25,179 bases of DNA from a virus. Location of the stretch: the IMG/VR virus record IMGVR_UViG_3300032235_000354, positions 1 to 25,179 of that record, one strand, 5' to 3'. The notes under the pieces were generated by a model that saw only the letters and a list, made by a program, of their open reading frames with translations, was not told the origin of the DNA and did no database searches. Every line of letters starts with the position of its first letter. The first letter of the stretch is position 1. Both the position numbers and the translations under genes were made by a program. Of this stretch, positions 6,927-21,213 are shown one piece after another.

Positions 6927-7191
6927 AACCATTGGCGAACTGCGTAAAAGGCAAATTAGCGGAAACATCAATAAGCCTTTGCGTACTTATCGGGAATTGT
7001 CGGAATTGGTGCAAAAAAAATACAACATTACAGATGCTCAACTGCGTGGATGGTTGAGAAAGCCCGATGCGCCAAAAATGAAAGTTAGGCACAAATCAAC
7101 TGGTGGTGGACAAAACTCATGGTATGAGCCAACAGAATTTTTTGCATGGCTTGTAAAGGTGATAAATGAAGAACGAAGAGAAAAAGCATAA
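6913..7191 (+). CDS. Hypothetical early protein, possible HTH
   Basis: A 92-aa basic protein. A helix-turn-helix-like stretch is seen at about 25-50 (RTYRELSELVQKKYNITDAQLRGWLRK), followed by a basic loop with STGGGQNSWY and a C-terminal helix. It overlaps both neighbours (14 and 26 bases). Probably DNA binding, but the family is not recognised. Confidence 0.6.
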   Translation: MKFPETIGELRKRQISGNINKPLRTYRELSELVQKKYNITDAQLRGWLRKPDAPKMKVRHKSTGGGQNSWYEPTEFFAWLVKVINEERREKA

Positions 7192-7450
7192 GCAAGCCGT
7201 AGCAAGTCTAGGCTGTGCGTTGTGCCATCACTTGTATGGCGATCACGAACCCGGACCTGTTGAGCTTCACCACCTGAGAGAAGGCGGTTGGGGCAAAGGC
7301 GACTACAAAACGCTGATCCCGTTGTGTGTGGAACATCACAGAGGGGATGAGGGTTTTCACGGGCTAGGCAGCAAAGGATTTGTGGCTTACTATGACATCA
7401 CTCAGCAAGAACTGCTTGAGTGGACACTTAACAAGATAGGACAAAAATGA
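7166..7450 (+). CDS. Ref-like HNH recombination nuclease
   Basis: A 94-aa protein with zinc and HNH-type residues: C17-x2-C20, H35-H36 in PVELHHLREGG, and C54-x2-H57-H58 in IPLCVEHHRG, ending with a Q-x-x-LLEW helix. This layout matches phage P1 Ref and its relatives (HNHc_6/DUF968-type), RecA-dependent nucleases that cut DNA at displacement loops. It follows NinB and the VRR-NUC gene. Confidence 0.75.
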   Translation: MKNEEKKHKQAVASLGCALCHHLYGDHEPGPVELHHLREGGWGKGDYKTLIPLCVEHHRGDEGFHGLGSKGFVAYYDITQQELLEWTLNKIGQK

Positions 7451-10149: not shown

Positions 10150-10548
10150 ATGAAGTTCACTATCAACGAAGCCCAATCTGATGTCATCAGCGAGTTTGCA
10201 TCTGTGCTGGTTATGGGTGCAGCCGCTGCTCATGTCCACCACTGGAACACCATTGGCCCCGGATCGTTTGCAGCACATGAGGCAATGGGAGAGTTCTATG
10301 ACAAGCTCCCCGACCTTGCAGACAGCGTGATTGAGGCTTGCCTTCAAGACGAGTCCAAAATATTTCTGGAAAAACAGGCACTTTTTGTGGGGGAAAGTCC
10401 ACTGGCGCTTGTTGAGTACATTCAGGCGCGTGTCAAAGAAATGAGACAAAAGCCCGGATTTCCACAGGACAGCGAAGTCCAAAACCTTGTGGATGGTATC
10501 GGAGAGTTGTGCCGCCACACCATCTTTAAGCTCAAGCGACTGAAATAA
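10150..10548 (+). CDS. Dps/ferritin-like protein
   Basis: A 132-aa helical protein with AHVHHWNTIGPGSFAAHEAMGEFYDKLPDLADSVIEA. This matches the Dps active-site region: H31, H43 (+12), D58 and E62 (DxxxE) stand at the spacings of E. coli Dps H51, H63, D78 and E82. The residue matching D67 is Gly47, with Glu48 next to it. Dps proteins oxidise and store iron and bind DNA. The phage relatives (DUF5856-like) are poorly studied. It lacks the N-terminal Lys-rich tail. An AAAGGAAC site precedes ATG 10150. Confidence 0.65.
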   Translation: MKFTINEAQSDVISEFASVLVMGAAAAHVHHWNTIGPGSFAAHEAMGEFYDKLPDLADSVIEACLQDESKIFLEKQALFVGESPLALVEYIQARVKEMRQKPGFPQDSEVQNLVDGIGELCRHTIFKLKRLK

Positions 10549-10748: not shown

Positions 10749-10798
10749 CAAAAAATGTTTTTTACGCAATTTTGAGAATTCTCCGGAAAGAGGAATTT

Positions 10799-10825
10799 TG
10801 CCTAGCTCGACTAGGCATTTTTTTT
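10799..10825 (+). terminator. Intrinsic terminator of the rightward early operon
   Basis: GCCTAG (10800-10805), loop CTCGA, CTAGGC (10811-10816), with an extra T-A pair, followed by eight T. A second T run follows. It lies about 50 bases after the last gene. Confidence 0.88.
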
Positions 10826-10884
10826 CTTCAAAATTTTTTTTCCGAAATGCGTAGGTGGCCTTTGGACTTTTCTGGCCCTAGTAT

Positions 10885-10904
10885 TACTGTACGTTCATAC
10901 AGTA
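10885..10904. promoter_or_regulatory. LexA (SOS) box
   Basis: TACTGTACGTTCATACAGTA has CTGT-N8-ACAG with the flanking TA on each side, as in the enterobacterial consensus, which betaproteobacterial LexA also recognises. The dyad extends outward: GTATTACTGTA (10881-10891) and TACAGTATTAC (10898-10908) are inverted copies with one mismatch. No promoter hexamers are convincing next to it. On the rightward side the first same-strand gene is the HNH nuclease at 12441. Confidence 0.75.
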
Positions 10905-10907
10905 TTA

Positions 10908-10922
10908 CAGGGTTTACCCTAG
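10908..10922. promoter_or_regulatory. Operator-like dyad AGGGTTTACCCT
   Basis: AGGG (10909-10912) and CCCT (10917-10920), with T/A inside, lie just after the LexA box. It shares the TACCCTA half site with 4148-4154 and 12413-12419. Confidence 0.45.
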
Positions 10923-10992
10923 TTCTCACTGGCGTGGTATCGGTCTGCTGCCCGTTCTACCTGCCAAAAGTAGTACAAAACCGGCCCGTTTT

Positions 10993-11061
10993 GCCTGCCT
11001 TGCGCCTGCCGCGCTGCCGCTTGAAACCCTGCCGCCTGCCATGCCTGCCTCTGCGCCTGCC
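10993..11061. repeat. GCCTGCC heptamer cluster
   Basis: GCCTGCC occurs at 10993, 11004, 11034, 11043 and 11055, within a segment made largely of CTGCC units. The same motif reappears at 12865-12871 just after the HNH gene. Confidence 0.7.
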
Positions 11062-11073
11062 TGCAATAGACAA

Positions 11074-11124
11074 TTTGCGGCTTTGCAGGCGCTCAAAATC
11101 AATTGACTAGCGACTAGCCGCAAA
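11074..11124. repeat. Long-spaced inverted repeat with tandem heptamer
   Basis: TTTGCGGCT (11074-11082) and AGCCGCAAA (11116-11124) are perfect 9-bp inverted arms around 33 bases. A tandem repeat GACTAGC-GACTAGC (11105-11118) runs into the right arm. It could form a stem-loop in RNA or be a protein binding site. Confidence 0.55.
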
Positions 11125-11186
11125 ACCTAGAAAAGCCCCTACAAACCCAAAAAAGCGAAGTGAGCACTTACTAACTTAGCAAGCCC

Positions 11187-11211
11187 AAAAAAACCCGGCA
11201 AAACGCCGGGT
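11187..11211 (-). terminator. Intrinsic terminator of the leftward accessory cassette
   Basis: On the minus strand ACCCGGC-GTTTT-GCCGGGT is followed by a T run (the A run at 11187-11193). It lies about 20 bases after the stop of the last cassette gene. On the plus strand no T run follows, so it should work leftward only. Confidence 0.85.
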
Positions 11212-11229
11212 GTGCTTGGGTTTAATAAG

Positions 11230-11391
11230 TCAGGCCAAAAGCCAAAAATCCTCTTTATGGATTGTCACCCATGAACATGGGGGATCGTCAAAACGAGTAC
11301 TGCAAAGCAAAACAGCCCCCTTGATGCGCTGGATGACGTATAAAGGGGAATTGTCCTCTAAGGTGTTGACCCCGAATGATCCTTTTTTCAT
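11230..11391 (-). CDS. Small hypothetical protein (53 aa), last cassette gene
   Basis: MKKGSFGVNTLEDNSPLYVI... to HKEDFWLLA. Its ATG overlaps the stop of the 38-aa gene (ATGA), with an AGGGGGGAAA ribosome site upstream, and the terminator follows at once. The beta-rich pattern with QRIKGAVLLCST is not assigned to a family. Confidence 0.6.
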   Translation of the reverse strand: MKKGSFGVNTLEDNSPLYVIQRIKGAVLLCSTRFDDPPCSWVTIHKEDFWLLA

Positions 11392-11504
11392 GCTTTCCCC
11401 CCTGACTGTTTCAAGTATTTGACAAGCATAACGGCGTAGACGTGGAATTTTTCCAAGCTGTCCGCTTGCTTCATTAGCTTAACGATGCGTTGATATTCGT
11501 TCAT
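11388..11504 (-). CDS. Small hypothetical protein (38 aa)
   Basis: MNEYQRIVKLMKQADSLEKF... to KQSGGKA is a helical, basic peptide. Its ATG overlaps the stop of the 66-aa gene and a purine-rich GAGGTGGAAG site lies before it. Overlaps at both ends support real translation despite the size. Confidence 0.55.
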   Translation of the reverse strand: MNEYQRIVKLMKQADSLEKFHVYAVMLVKYLKQSGGKA

Positions 11505-11701
11505 GCTTCCACCTCTTTTGGTGTAATGGTTACTGATTTAAATCCATATGTAATGGTCAATTCTTTGCCTTGTTGAAGTGTTTTGCGAAAGTCTGAAATC
11601 TGCCCATAACTGAAATAGATCATGGTTGCAGCGCGACACAATGCGCCCTCTAGAGTGTCATATTCATAAGGCATACCGCCTGTTGAAACCAAGTATTTCA
11701 T
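11501..11701 (-). CDS. Small hypothetical protein (66 aa)
   Basis: MKYLVSTGGMPYEYDTLEGAL..., with mixed alpha and beta content and ending ITPKEVEA. A GGGG ribosome site (AAGGGGTACACC) precedes ATG 11701, ten bases after the stop of the 167-aa gene. No domain is recognised. Confidence 0.65.
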   Translation of the reverse strand: MKYLVSTGGMPYEYDTLEGALCRAATMIYFSYGQISDFRKTLQQGKELTITYGFKSVTITPKEVEA

Positions 11702-11711
11702 GGTGTACCCC

Positions 11712-12215
11712 TTAAAGCGCCGTTATGACGCGAAACCCAAGCATTTCAAGGCGGCCTAAACCGCTTTCATTGTGCAAGCTGCCCCATGAGCGAGGCAGGC
11801 CCGCGGCGGGAGTATTCCAATTGGCAAAACGGCAACCGATACGAACGGCCCTTTTTTCAAAGGCGGCGTGATCTTCGCGTGACATTTCCCCCGCTTTGAC
11901 CCGGCGCTTATAGGCTTTCATAAGGGCTTCGCGTTTCTTTTCCCCGGCGGCTTCAACATGGCCGCAATGATTCGCTAATTTATAGCCTTCAATCACTGCC
12001 CCGGCCAAGGCGGCGGCGGCTTTATCGTAACCATAGCCACCGGCCTTTTGCTGGTGCGTCAATGAAAGCCACGTTTCACCCTCTTTGCGTGACCATACGT
12101 CACACTGAACCCCGCCGCCTGAACCATAGCGCCATTGAACCGTGGCTACATGTTCGCCTTTTTTGTTCAGGATGATTTTTGCAGCGGTGTCGCTTGCTTC
12201 GCGTATTTGTTTCAT
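11712..12215 (-). CDS. Hypothetical protein (167 aa) of the accessory cassette
   Basis: The N-terminal part (about 10-75) is beta-rich with KKGEHVATVQWRYGSGGGVQCDVW and ends in GGYGYDKAAAALAGAVIEGYKLANHCG, a glycine/alanine pattern seen in other phage and plasmid hypothetical proteins. The middle is Lys/Arg-rich and helical. The start has no strong ribosome site but lies 20 bases after the upstream stop. Function unknown. Confidence 0.7.
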   Translation of the reverse strand: MKQIREASDTAAKIILNKKGEHVATVQWRYGSGGGVQCDVWSRKEGETWLSLTHQQKAGGYGYDKAAAALAGAVIEGYKLANHCGHVEAAGEKKREALMKAYKRRVKAGEMSREDHAAFEKRAVRIGCRFANWNTPAAGLPRSWGSLHNESGLGRLEMLGFRVITAL

Positions 12216-12235
12216 GGTGTCTTGTCTTTCGTGGG

Positions 12236-12331
12236 TTAGTAGGTGAGGATGTCAAAGTAAGCAAGGGCAAAGCCACAAAGGACAAGGCCCAAAAGAACGG
12301 CGGTCAAAATGTCAAAAATTGTGTCTTTCAT
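12236..12331 (-). CDS. Single-pass membrane microprotein (31 aa)
   Basis: MKDTIFDILTAVLLGLVLCGFALAYFDILTY is translated as one hydrophobic helix with polar ends; TFDIL-like segments appear at both ends. It opens the leftward cassette, 20 bases before the 167-aa gene. Ribosome site is weak (GGCGACACC). It could be a holin-like or toxin-like peptide; nothing in the sequence decides this. Confidence 0.5.
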   Translation of the reverse strand: MKDTIFDILTAVLLGLVLCGFALAYFDILTY

Positions 12332-12342
12332 GGTGTCGCCTT

Positions 12343-12368
12343 AAAAAAGCCGGGTCAACGTCAACCCG
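12343..12368 (-). terminator. Leader hairpin or attenuator before the accessory cassette
   Basis: On the minus strand CGGGT-TGACGTTG-ACCCG is followed by GC and six T. This is terminator-like, but it sits between the divergent promoter region and the first cassette gene, so it may act as an attenuator. The loop contains a tandem GTTGAC repeat. Confidence 0.5.
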
Positions 12369-12404
12369 TGCAGCTAATGTCGCACTTGTCCACAATAAAT
12401 TCTA

Positions 12405-12419
12405 TAGGGGTTTACCCTA
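12405..12419. promoter_or_regulatory. Operator-like palindrome between cassette and late operon
   Basis: TAGGG-GTTTA-CCCTA is a perfect 5-bp-arm dyad in the divergent region. A minus-strand TATAGA/TAGAAT element overlaps its right side in that direction (12398-12406). It shares TACCCTA with the dyads at 4148 and 10915. Confidence 0.5.
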
Positions 12420-12863: not shown

Positions 12864-13135
12864 AGCCTGCCTGCCCTGCCTGATTCTCGCAATTCATGCG
12901 CGTTTTGTAGTGCTTGGGTTTTCAATACGGTGAGCCGCGCTGCCTCATTAGCTCAAAATGCAGTACCACGGCACTCGCCGCCTGCGCGGTGAGAACTAAA
13001 AGTACACGCTTTTGCGCGGGAGCAGGCGCGGGGTCAATTTCGGAGGGGTACAAAGTCAAGAGGGGGGAGTATTTTGCGTGGGAATTCCCTGAATGTGATA
13101 CGCTTGCGTCAGACAAGACAAAAGGAATTTCCCCT
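12864..13135 (+). other. Non-coding gap between HNH and TerS, possible packaging site region
   Basis: 272 bases with no convincing gene. It begins with CCTGCC repeats (12865-12881) and contains GC-rich repeats GCGCG(G) near 12950-13035. Packaging recognition sites often lie next to the small terminase gene, so cos or pac is possible, but no defined element can be named. A tRNA-like TTAGCTCA was considered and rejected. Confidence 0.35.
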
Positions 13136-19515: not shown

Positions 19516-20529
19516 ATGACCATCACTGAAAAAATCCTCGCTGGAATTAAGCAAGCCATTACTGAAGGCGGCACAGTCAACATCGACCTGAAAGAAGCCT
19601 CTGCAATCACTGGCTCTGGCTCTGGTGTGGGTGGTCGTGCAGTATTTGATGATGCCTTTGCCGCCTTGCGTTACGCAAACCCCTTCCGTATGGGTTCGCG
19701 CATCGTGCCTGTTGCTGGCTCTGATATGCAGTTCGTTGCCAAGACTGGTAACGCAACAAACCAAACAAACCCTTGGGGCTATCCCGTTCAAAACAACGTG
19801 GGTTCGCCTGATACCAACACAAGCATCTGGCAATTGCCAGTTCGTGCTGTGACTGCTCGTTTGCCTATCCGTTCGGCTGTGATGTCGGATGTGAATGGCC
19901 TTGAGGCATCCATTGTTGAAGACCTCGCATTGGAATTTGCTCAAGTTGAGGGCGCTTCTATGGCGGTCAACTCCGACCAGTCTGGTTCGACCACCACATC
20001 CACTGGCGCAACATCCGGCCTGCGTGGTTTGGATATGTATGTGTCTGCCTCTGCAAGTGCTTACGGCACATCTGGCACATCCATCACAAACGGCATCCAC
20101 AGCATTGCTACCGTGGCTCAAACTGGCGGCGGCGTGGTGTACAACAACATCGTTGATGTCGTTAATGCCTTCCCAAGCCAATACTGGTCTTTGCCCGGCA
20201 ACGCTTGGCACATTCGCCCATCCATGATTGATTCGCTGCGTAGCCTCAAGGATTCGCAGGGCTTGCCATTGTTCTTGGAAGTTGGCGATGAAGACGGCGC
20301 TGCTGTTGGTCGTATGTTTGGTTTCCCTGTGATTCCGAACCCATACCTGTCCACTGGCTTCCCAATCTATTTGGCAAACTGGCCTCGTTTCCTGACTATT
20401 GGCGACACCGAGCAGATGTCGATTCAAATGATGGACCAAACTGCGCCCGGATTCGTTACACTGTACGCAGAAAAGCGTGTAGTTAGCTCCGTGCGTGACC
20501 CGTTTGCTGGTGTTCGCATGAGCGCCTAA
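19516..20529 (+). CDS. Major capsid protein 2 (HK97 fold paralog without delta domain)
   Basis: A 337-aa paralog of MCP1. The match starts at KEASAITGSGSGVGGRAVFDDAFAALRYANPFR (residue 26; residue 104 in MCP1), runs through SIWQLPVRAVTARLPIRSAV and GLRGLDMY, and ends with SVRDPFAGVRMSA. It therefore lacks about 78 N-terminal residues, nearly all of the delta region. It could be a minor capsid subunit, for example at vertices or as capsid decoration. AGGAAA precedes ATG 19516. Intact and well conserved, not a pseudogene. Confidence 0.93.
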   Translation: MTITEKILAGIKQAITEGGTVNIDLKEASAITGSGSGVGGRAVFDDAFAALRYANPFRMGSRIVPVAGSDMQFVAKTGNATNQTNPWGYPVQNNVGSPDTNTSIWQLPVRAVTARLPIRSAVMSDVNGLEASIVEDLALEFAQVEGASMAVNSDQSGSTTTSTGATSGLRGLDMYVSASASAYGTSGTSITNGIHSIATVAQTGGGVVYNNIVDVVNAFPSQYWSLPGNAWHIRPSMIDSLRSLKDSQGLPLFLEVGDEDGAAVGRMFGFPVIPNPYLSTGFPIYLANWPRFLTIGDTEQMSIQMMDQTAPGFVTLYAEKRVVSSVRDPFAGVRMSA

Positions 20530-20541
20530 TAGGGGATAAGT

Positions 20542-21213
20542 ATGTCCGTGCAAAGTGTATTGACTGGCCTGCCTTACGGTGGTCAAACCCGCAATCCGTT
20601 TAACTACGTCAAGGTTGAGCAGATTGGCAGGGATGTGACCACCAATTGGCTGACTCCTGATGAAGTCACCAATCAATTGAACTTGTTTGACGATCAGAGC
20701 CAAGACAGCTATGTCATGGGCTTGGATTTGGCAACTCGGATGTACATTGAGGACTACCTCGGGCTGTCGATCTTCCCTGTAACGTACCGTGTTTGGTATG
20801 GCGCAGAGAGCTTGACGGCCACTCCTGTGAGTCTTGACCTGCCAGAAGTCAGTCAGAATGTGCAACCAAACCTTGCGCCTCTGACAATCGGTTCTGTCGG
20901 TTATTACAACTCTCTTTTCCCGCCTGTCTTTGTTCCTGTTGACCCATCGCAGTATTACTACGACAACAGCGGTAACAAAATCATCATCACCAGCTTGCCG
21001 ACCGACATCAACACACAGATGACGGCTCCAATTGTGGTGCAGTACACGACCGTGGGCAGTCCTTTGGCGGCTTATCCCGTGATTAAGCAGGCTGGATTGC
21101 TGATTCTCACGCACCTGTACAACAACCGTTCGGACACAACTGAAACCAAGCTGAAGACCATCCCTTATGGCGCTCAGACTTTGCTGCGTCCTTACAAGCC
21201 ACTGGTGATGTAA
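20542..21213 (+). CDS. Head-tail connector (HK97 gp6-like adaptor)
   Basis: A 223-aa protein. The N-terminal helices (WLTPDEVTNQLNLF...YVMGLDLATRMYIEDYLGLSIF) and the C-terminal helix (IKQAGLLILTHLYNNRSD...LLRPYKPLVM) match the gp6-type adaptor that binds under the portal. Between them lies a beta-rich insert of about 100 residues, which makes it about twice the usual length. Confidence 0.85.
   Translation: MSVQSVLTGLPYGGQTRNPFNYVKVEQIGRDVTTNWLTPDEVTNQLNLFDDQSQDSYVMGLDLATRMYIEDYLGLSIFPVTYRVWYGAESLTATPVSLDLPEVSQNVQPNLAPLTIGSVGYYNSLFPPVFVPVDPSQYYYDNSGNKIIITSLPTDINTQMTAPIVVQYTTVGSPLAAYPVIKQAGLLILTHLYNNRSDTTETKLKTIPYGAQTLLRPYKPLVM

Follow-up and report, generated by a model that had tools for sequence, protein, structure and literature searches.

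A LexA operator in a gene-free island of freshwater phages and the untranslated RNA it may control

The stretch of DNA analyzed here (the window, 25,179 nucleotides) covers positions 1 to 25,179 of IMG/VR virus record IMGVR_UViG_3300032235_000354. Between the early/DUF5856 operon and an accessory cassette that faces leftward, with the HNH and terminase genes beyond it, lies an island with the following features (window coordinates).

10799..10825, + strand: rightward intrinsic terminator at the end of the early/DUF5856 operon, the left wall (7-bp stem, loop of 5, T8)
10829..10850, + strand: UP-element-like block CAAAATTTTTTTTCCGAAATGC, matching 14 of 15 specified UP consensus positions and conserved in most related islands
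10855..10860, + strand: candidate -35, GTGGCC, weak, its position and spacing fixed in aligned islands
10879..10884, + strand: candidate -10, TAGTAT, 18 bp after the -35 and matching TATAAT at 4 of 6 positions
10885..10904, no strand assigned: LexA operator TACTGTACGTTCATACAGTA, at about -6 to +14 relative to the predicted start (basis: pattern, matrix score, bacterial loci)
10908..10922, no strand assigned: palindromic element CAGGGTTTACCCTAG (AGGG(G)TTTACCCT type), conserved beside the LexA box
10950..11064, + strand: C-rich array of degenerate GCCTGCC units, within the 200-nt stretch of highest C-over-G excess in the record
10966..10982, + strand: conserved element AAAAGTAGTACAAAACC preceding the array, at the same position in islands L083 and L035 and also present in L052 and L048
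11193..11211, - strand: leftward intrinsic terminator of the accessory cassette, the right wall (8-bp stem plus T-run)
11230..12215, - strand: accessory cassette (53-, 66-, and 167-aa ORFs), which would face a rightward transcript and whose gene content varies among relatives

Judged by pattern, the facing terminators named in an earlier note on this DNA are real: both the rightward one at 10799-10825 and the leftward one at 11211-11193 combine a stem with a T-run. That note placed the island at 10826-11211, which omits the left terminator, an element that is part of the unit and present in nearly all related islands. Its statement that no gene follows nearby also held, as neither the ORF list nor comparison with relatives yielded a plausible gene between the two walls. 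The ORFs that cross the island, 10772-11110 (+) and 10926-11123 (-), run through the terminator, the operator, or the repeats; neither shows a ribosome site or is conserved in relatives. A leader ORF from ATGCGTAG was rejected as well: although it reads through the operator in the window, most relatives have an early stop in it, and it lacks a ribosome site. The neighboring DUF5856 protein (10150-10548) corresponds to the PHROG annotation "starvation-inducible transcriptional regulator," and DUF5856 is also found beside the T-even rI gene.

The box at 10885-10904 has perfect 7-bp arms and is the single exact CTGT-N8-ACAG found by pattern scan in the 25,179 bases. It departs from the idealized E. 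coli LexA consensus at 4 of 20 positions, every one of them central, and LexA is tolerant of changes in the operator center. We scored it with a matrix built from boxes upstream of lexA in Burkholderiales genomes (that the phage host has a LexA is inferred from the box type only). The box is a CTG-N10-CAG palindrome that scores like the lexA operators themselves, at 20.7 bits, compared to 14.4 for the runner-up in the window. The top score in 60 simulated windows never exceeded 17.1 bits, the expected number of sites per 25 kb is 0.27 at ≥14 bits and 0.017 at ≥18 bits, and no site of ≥20 bits occurred in 3 Mb of simulated sequence.

The same 20-mer is in use in bacteria. When 84,980 genomes of bacteria and archaea were scanned with TACTGTACGTTCATACAGTA, exact matches came up in 22 bacterial genomes, chiefly Burkholderiales and Gammaproteobacteria, against about 0.5 predicted from base count. 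Among the loci examined, the nearest downstream gene was an SOS gene at ten: sulA or a weaker sulA-like homologue at L102, L104, L106, L111, and L113, and imuA at L107, L109, L114, L115, and L122. From the matrix score, the excess of the 20-mer in bacteria, and its position before sulA and imuA, we conclude that the box is a genuine LexA operator sequence, which bears out the near-perfect SOS consensus reported earlier. Binding of LexA to it is well supported by these comparisons and would be expected in the real host.

The features immediately left of the operator resemble a promoter. Compared with rrnB P1, the UP-like block stands some 3 bp farther from the -35. The block, AAATTTTTTTTCCGAAA, lies upstream of the -35 and agrees with the UP element NNAAAWWTWTTTTNNAAAANNN at 14 of 15 specified positions, in the consensus form ending NNAAAA that is quoted in PMC5664571. 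The UP pattern AAAWWTWTTTTNNNAAA occurs once in the window, against 0.01 expected. The candidate -35 reads TTGGCC or TTGGCT in most relatives, and the candidate -10 reads TATATT, TATATA, or TTATTA. The UP-like block and the -10 stand at a fixed spacing, as in a promoter that the operator may overlap, but the -35 is weak and a simple promoter scan finds none here. Even so, the succession of UP block, -35, -10, and operator suggests a promoter directed rightward whose start site LexA would cover; the conserved block on the left of the box is what argues for the rightward orientation the earlier note had proposed.

A transcript from such a promoter would be rich in C, would not be translated, and would have no special structure. 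Its predicted folding is no better than that of shuffles (z = -0.87), and an Rfam search of the island gave no match. The array lies at the genome's peak of C-over-G excess (200 nt) in the window and in record G001 and at or adjoining the peak in G007, hence at or adjoining it in three of the five records tested; in G003 it is not a clear Rho site. From 10905 to 12400 we found no intrinsic terminator pointing rightward, in keeping with the reach toward HNH and terminase suggested before, so the RNA would either end by Rho in the array or run against the leftward cassette.

Repeated words and palindromes also occur around the array. Element AAAAGTAGTACAAAACC appears as AAATCATTACA in other relatives. 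The AGGG(G)TTTACCCT palindrome is present both in the island (10909) and before HNH (12406; 12405-12419), with a similar form in many relatives, and in islands L048, L006, L014, and L098 the CAGACCA-type array is bordered on one side or both by AGTGAGCACTCACT-type palindromes. Behind HNH, the motif of a phage's array is found again on the same strand (L083 after 6758, L089 after 7718, window 12865-12880), so that the two gaps of a phage share a repeat word of their own.

The earlier note had proposed looking for the same island in related phages, and with relatives drawn from IMG/VR by DNA patterns and terminase protein, we found it at the same place in about 25 of them. Islands are readable there in 25 cases including the window's, plus L071/L072; they follow the DUF5856 gene and usually a 66-aa gene as well. 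Searches against named phages gave only short, weak similarity matches. In most islands the left part is constant, comprising the rightward terminator, AAAATTTTTTTTCCGAAATGCGTAGTTGGC, and a fixed spacing to the -10-like hexamer. The module directly after the hexamer is exchangeable and belongs to a LexA type, to one of two repeat types, or to none of these. The first repeat type, in twelve islands, consists of TATATAAGC direct repeats at 16-bp spacing, or fewer copies; the second, in three, consists of 20-bp repeats CGGTGCAGTCAWAAACYATA; the L098 island has none of the three modules. A C-rich array of one of four types (GCCTGCC, CCCGCCCAATCG, CAGACCA, or CCTAGCC) follows the module, and then the leftward terminators. 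A given module does not imply a given array type, as GCCTGCC arrays occur with all three modules and CCCGCCC arrays with two.

The LexA type is found in the window, L082, L083, L035, L085, L095, and L101; the more distant L048, L052, and L071 carry it in other forms. Across these ten islands the outer CTG/CAG arms are kept (the exception being L052, with TTG) and the centers differ, the sequences being CTGTACGTTCATACAG (three islands), CTGGATGGGCATACAG, CTGGATGGAAACACAG, CTGGATGCCCATACAG, CTGGATGGATATACAG, CTGGATGCCCGTCCAG, CTGTGAAAAAACACAG, and TTGTATAAACATACAG. The CTGGATG form of the box is also found in Burkholderiales lexA promoters. Over the whole available sequence, no LexA site outscores the island box in the window, G001, G005, G007, L082, L095, L101, or L071. 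Seen across many related phages, these boxes suggest that LexA binding is under selection. With about 16 of 26 islands free of any LexA-type box, control by LexA is not essential to the island. LexA-like boxes of 13.8 to 17.5 bits also lie just behind HNH near cos at L014:5400, L100:14068, and L094:130, where the islands carry the 16-bp repeat module.

The phages that carry the island look virulent from their gene content; several records are probably near complete, with completeness uncertified. Tyrosine integrase, S24 repressor, and resolvase families (PF00589, PF00717, PF00239) were absent from ten relatives of 35 to 41 kb, and integrase and S24 (PF00589, PF00717) were absent from the window, a fragment, which agrees with the earlier remark that no phage repressor gene was in view. 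A prophage search for host assignment found no terminase relatives in bacterial genome contigs. The island is thus not recognizable as part of a temperate lysis-lysogeny switch, with neither integrase nor repressor and no terminase relative in bacterial genomes.

We favor the explanation that the island is an insulated unit in which a rightward promoter repressed by host LexA makes a C-rich untranslated RNA facing the leftward cassette, and we hold this explanation as a whole to have somewhat better than even chances. It builds on what is directly established, namely, the operator sequence and its SOS use in bacteria, its retention with a changing center, the constant promoter-like block, the walls, and the absence of genes. 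The predicted part comprises LexA binding in the real host, the making of a transcript and its rightward course, and what the RNA does. A sigma-70-type promoter (UP element at 10829-10850, weak -35 at 10855, -10 at 10879) would start at about 10891, inside the operator. In an undamaged host LexA would cover the start site and keep the promoter off; upon DNA damage, RecA filaments would bring about LexA self-cleavage and the promoter would come on. The untranslated, C-rich RNA would then run into the array and toward the accessory cassette, with the array possibly serving as a Rho-loading stretch that limits RNA length. Most likely, the output would be the RNA or the act of its synthesis, through antisense or convergent silencing of whichever cassette is present. 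We favor silencing or timing of the cassette by an untranslated RNA that the SOS response induces, in view of the order of promoter and operator, the predicted C-rich transcript, the lack of a terminator found before HNH, and the position of the array; silencing or timing is the weakest step. Since the promoter block is kept and the switch is swapped among relatives, it is probable that the phages sense the host's alarm for DNA damage and use it to control an untranslated RNA.

A broader version of this model is possible, and we offer it tentatively: the island may act as a "sensor socket," a constant strong promoter for a noncoding RNA into which operator modules (LexA and two repeat types) are plugged by recombination, independently of the RNA repeat type, so that the same output would answer to different host signals, DNA damage among them.

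Four other explanations were weighed against the SOS-induced RNA. That the LexA box and the other modules are simply protein-binding sites on DNA, a decoy from which no transcript arises, would suit the insulation from transcription on both sides, the repeat-rich modules and arrays, and the several palindromes clustered in the island. However, a single box could titrate little LexA, and a promoter-like block at fixed spacing to the -10 hexamer would be purposeless, so we regard a decoy as unlikely.

The earlier note had offered either an SOS-controlled late promoter or a small RNA, and of these, the predicted small untranslated or antisense RNA is the better fit. As a late promoter, the island would send a transcript antisense across the cassette to drive HNH, terS, and terL, and it has the right orientation, with no rightward intrinsic terminator detected on the way from the operator to HNH. 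What weakens the idea is that relatives without the island keep HNH and terminase: in L034 the 66-aa gene and HNH are only 244 bases apart, with no island in between, the island is missing from L026 too, and in P19250A, DUF5856 adjoins HNH. Moreover, a conserved promoter-like sequence of terS itself lies next to cos, together with the GGGAATTCCC palindrome, the long C-rich array would favor early termination, and the majority of islands carry something other than a LexA box. We therefore consider a late promoter quite unlikely. The conserved GGGAATTCCC palindrome lies at 13080-13089, between TTGCGT and the -10-like element TGTGATACGCT before terS, and is probably the operator of a terS promoter.

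A chance or relic box without function might be read from the lack of a LexA box in most islands and from CTGG in one arm in L035, L085, L095, and L101. Such a box would be expected far less than once per genome, its arms are kept as centers change in ten islands, and CTGG is present in Burkholderiales lexA operators, all of which make this a slim prospect. A phage replication origin with the repeats as initiator sites is very improbable, and the island is probably not one: it is noncoding, with T-tracts and, in some relatives, direct repeats of 16 or 20 bp, but the window's island has no DnaA box, the clusters lie instead upstream of HNH in G003 and L048, and GC-skew extremes fall away from the island in G001, G003, and G005. 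A role as a cos or packaging site was ruled out, as contig ends cluster at 13033, outside the island.

Phage use of host LexA is known mainly as a prophage induction switch. In the temperate phage lambda, oop is a short RNA directed against cII. According to PMC5869508 (citing Lewis et al. 1994), oop is an untranslated antisense RNA whose promoter, pO, contains a LexA-binding sequence, the likeness here being such a sequence in the promoter of a predicted untranslated phage RNA. The island phages differ in having no cII-like target or lysogeny genes, a predicted RNA that is C-rich and longer, and an exchangeable operator, and with no rightward intrinsic terminator found in the island and no known target, the predicted RNA does not qualify as oop-like. 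LexA use by temperate phages has been reviewed, and GIL01 uses host LexA for its lytic switch (Fornelos et al. 2016, as cited in PMC9437464). GIL01-type phages share a host LexA operator in a phage promoter (predicted here), but in them LexA controls antirepressor, co-repressor, or lytic genes of temperate phages, whereas the island has no such gene and no repressor or integrase was found. Virulent phages that read a host regulator are also on record, with Spo0A sites in phi29 and CtrA sites linked to "lytic deferment" (PMC9437464); here the regulator would be LexA, and the site lies over a gene-free island rather than lytic genes. The closest isolate by terminase, Methylophilaceae phage P19250A (KX815270; 60% identity), has a similar gene order around terminase but passes from DUF5856 directly to HNH, with no island and no strong LexA site (best, 12.5 bits). 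The literature searched held no account of virulent phages with LexA operators in an island free of genes, which is not proof of absence.

The operator described here thus occurs in freshwater phages without sign of lysogeny, where it precedes a gene-free unit. If the model is confirmed, virulent freshwater phages read the DNA-damage state of the host during infection, and the related islands provide a ready-made series of exchangeable operators joined to a single promoter.

Some observations concern the neighboring DNA. At GTCAATTTCGG, a GTCAATT site (window 13033) about 450 bases before terL, or close to it, about 25 contigs of relatives begin, and this is probably the cos end. The region just before HNH is a candidate origin: DnaA-box clusters lie there in relatives (G003 20261-20568; L048:2096-2318), and the window, which has no DnaA-box cluster (TTWTNCACA), has a near match to the DnaA box, TTGTCCACA, at 12386-12419. 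Finally, window 7166-7450 weakly matches a Ref-like RecA-filament endonuclease and lies near NinB/Orf and Mu Gam-like genes, so the phage itself may act on RecA or recombination.
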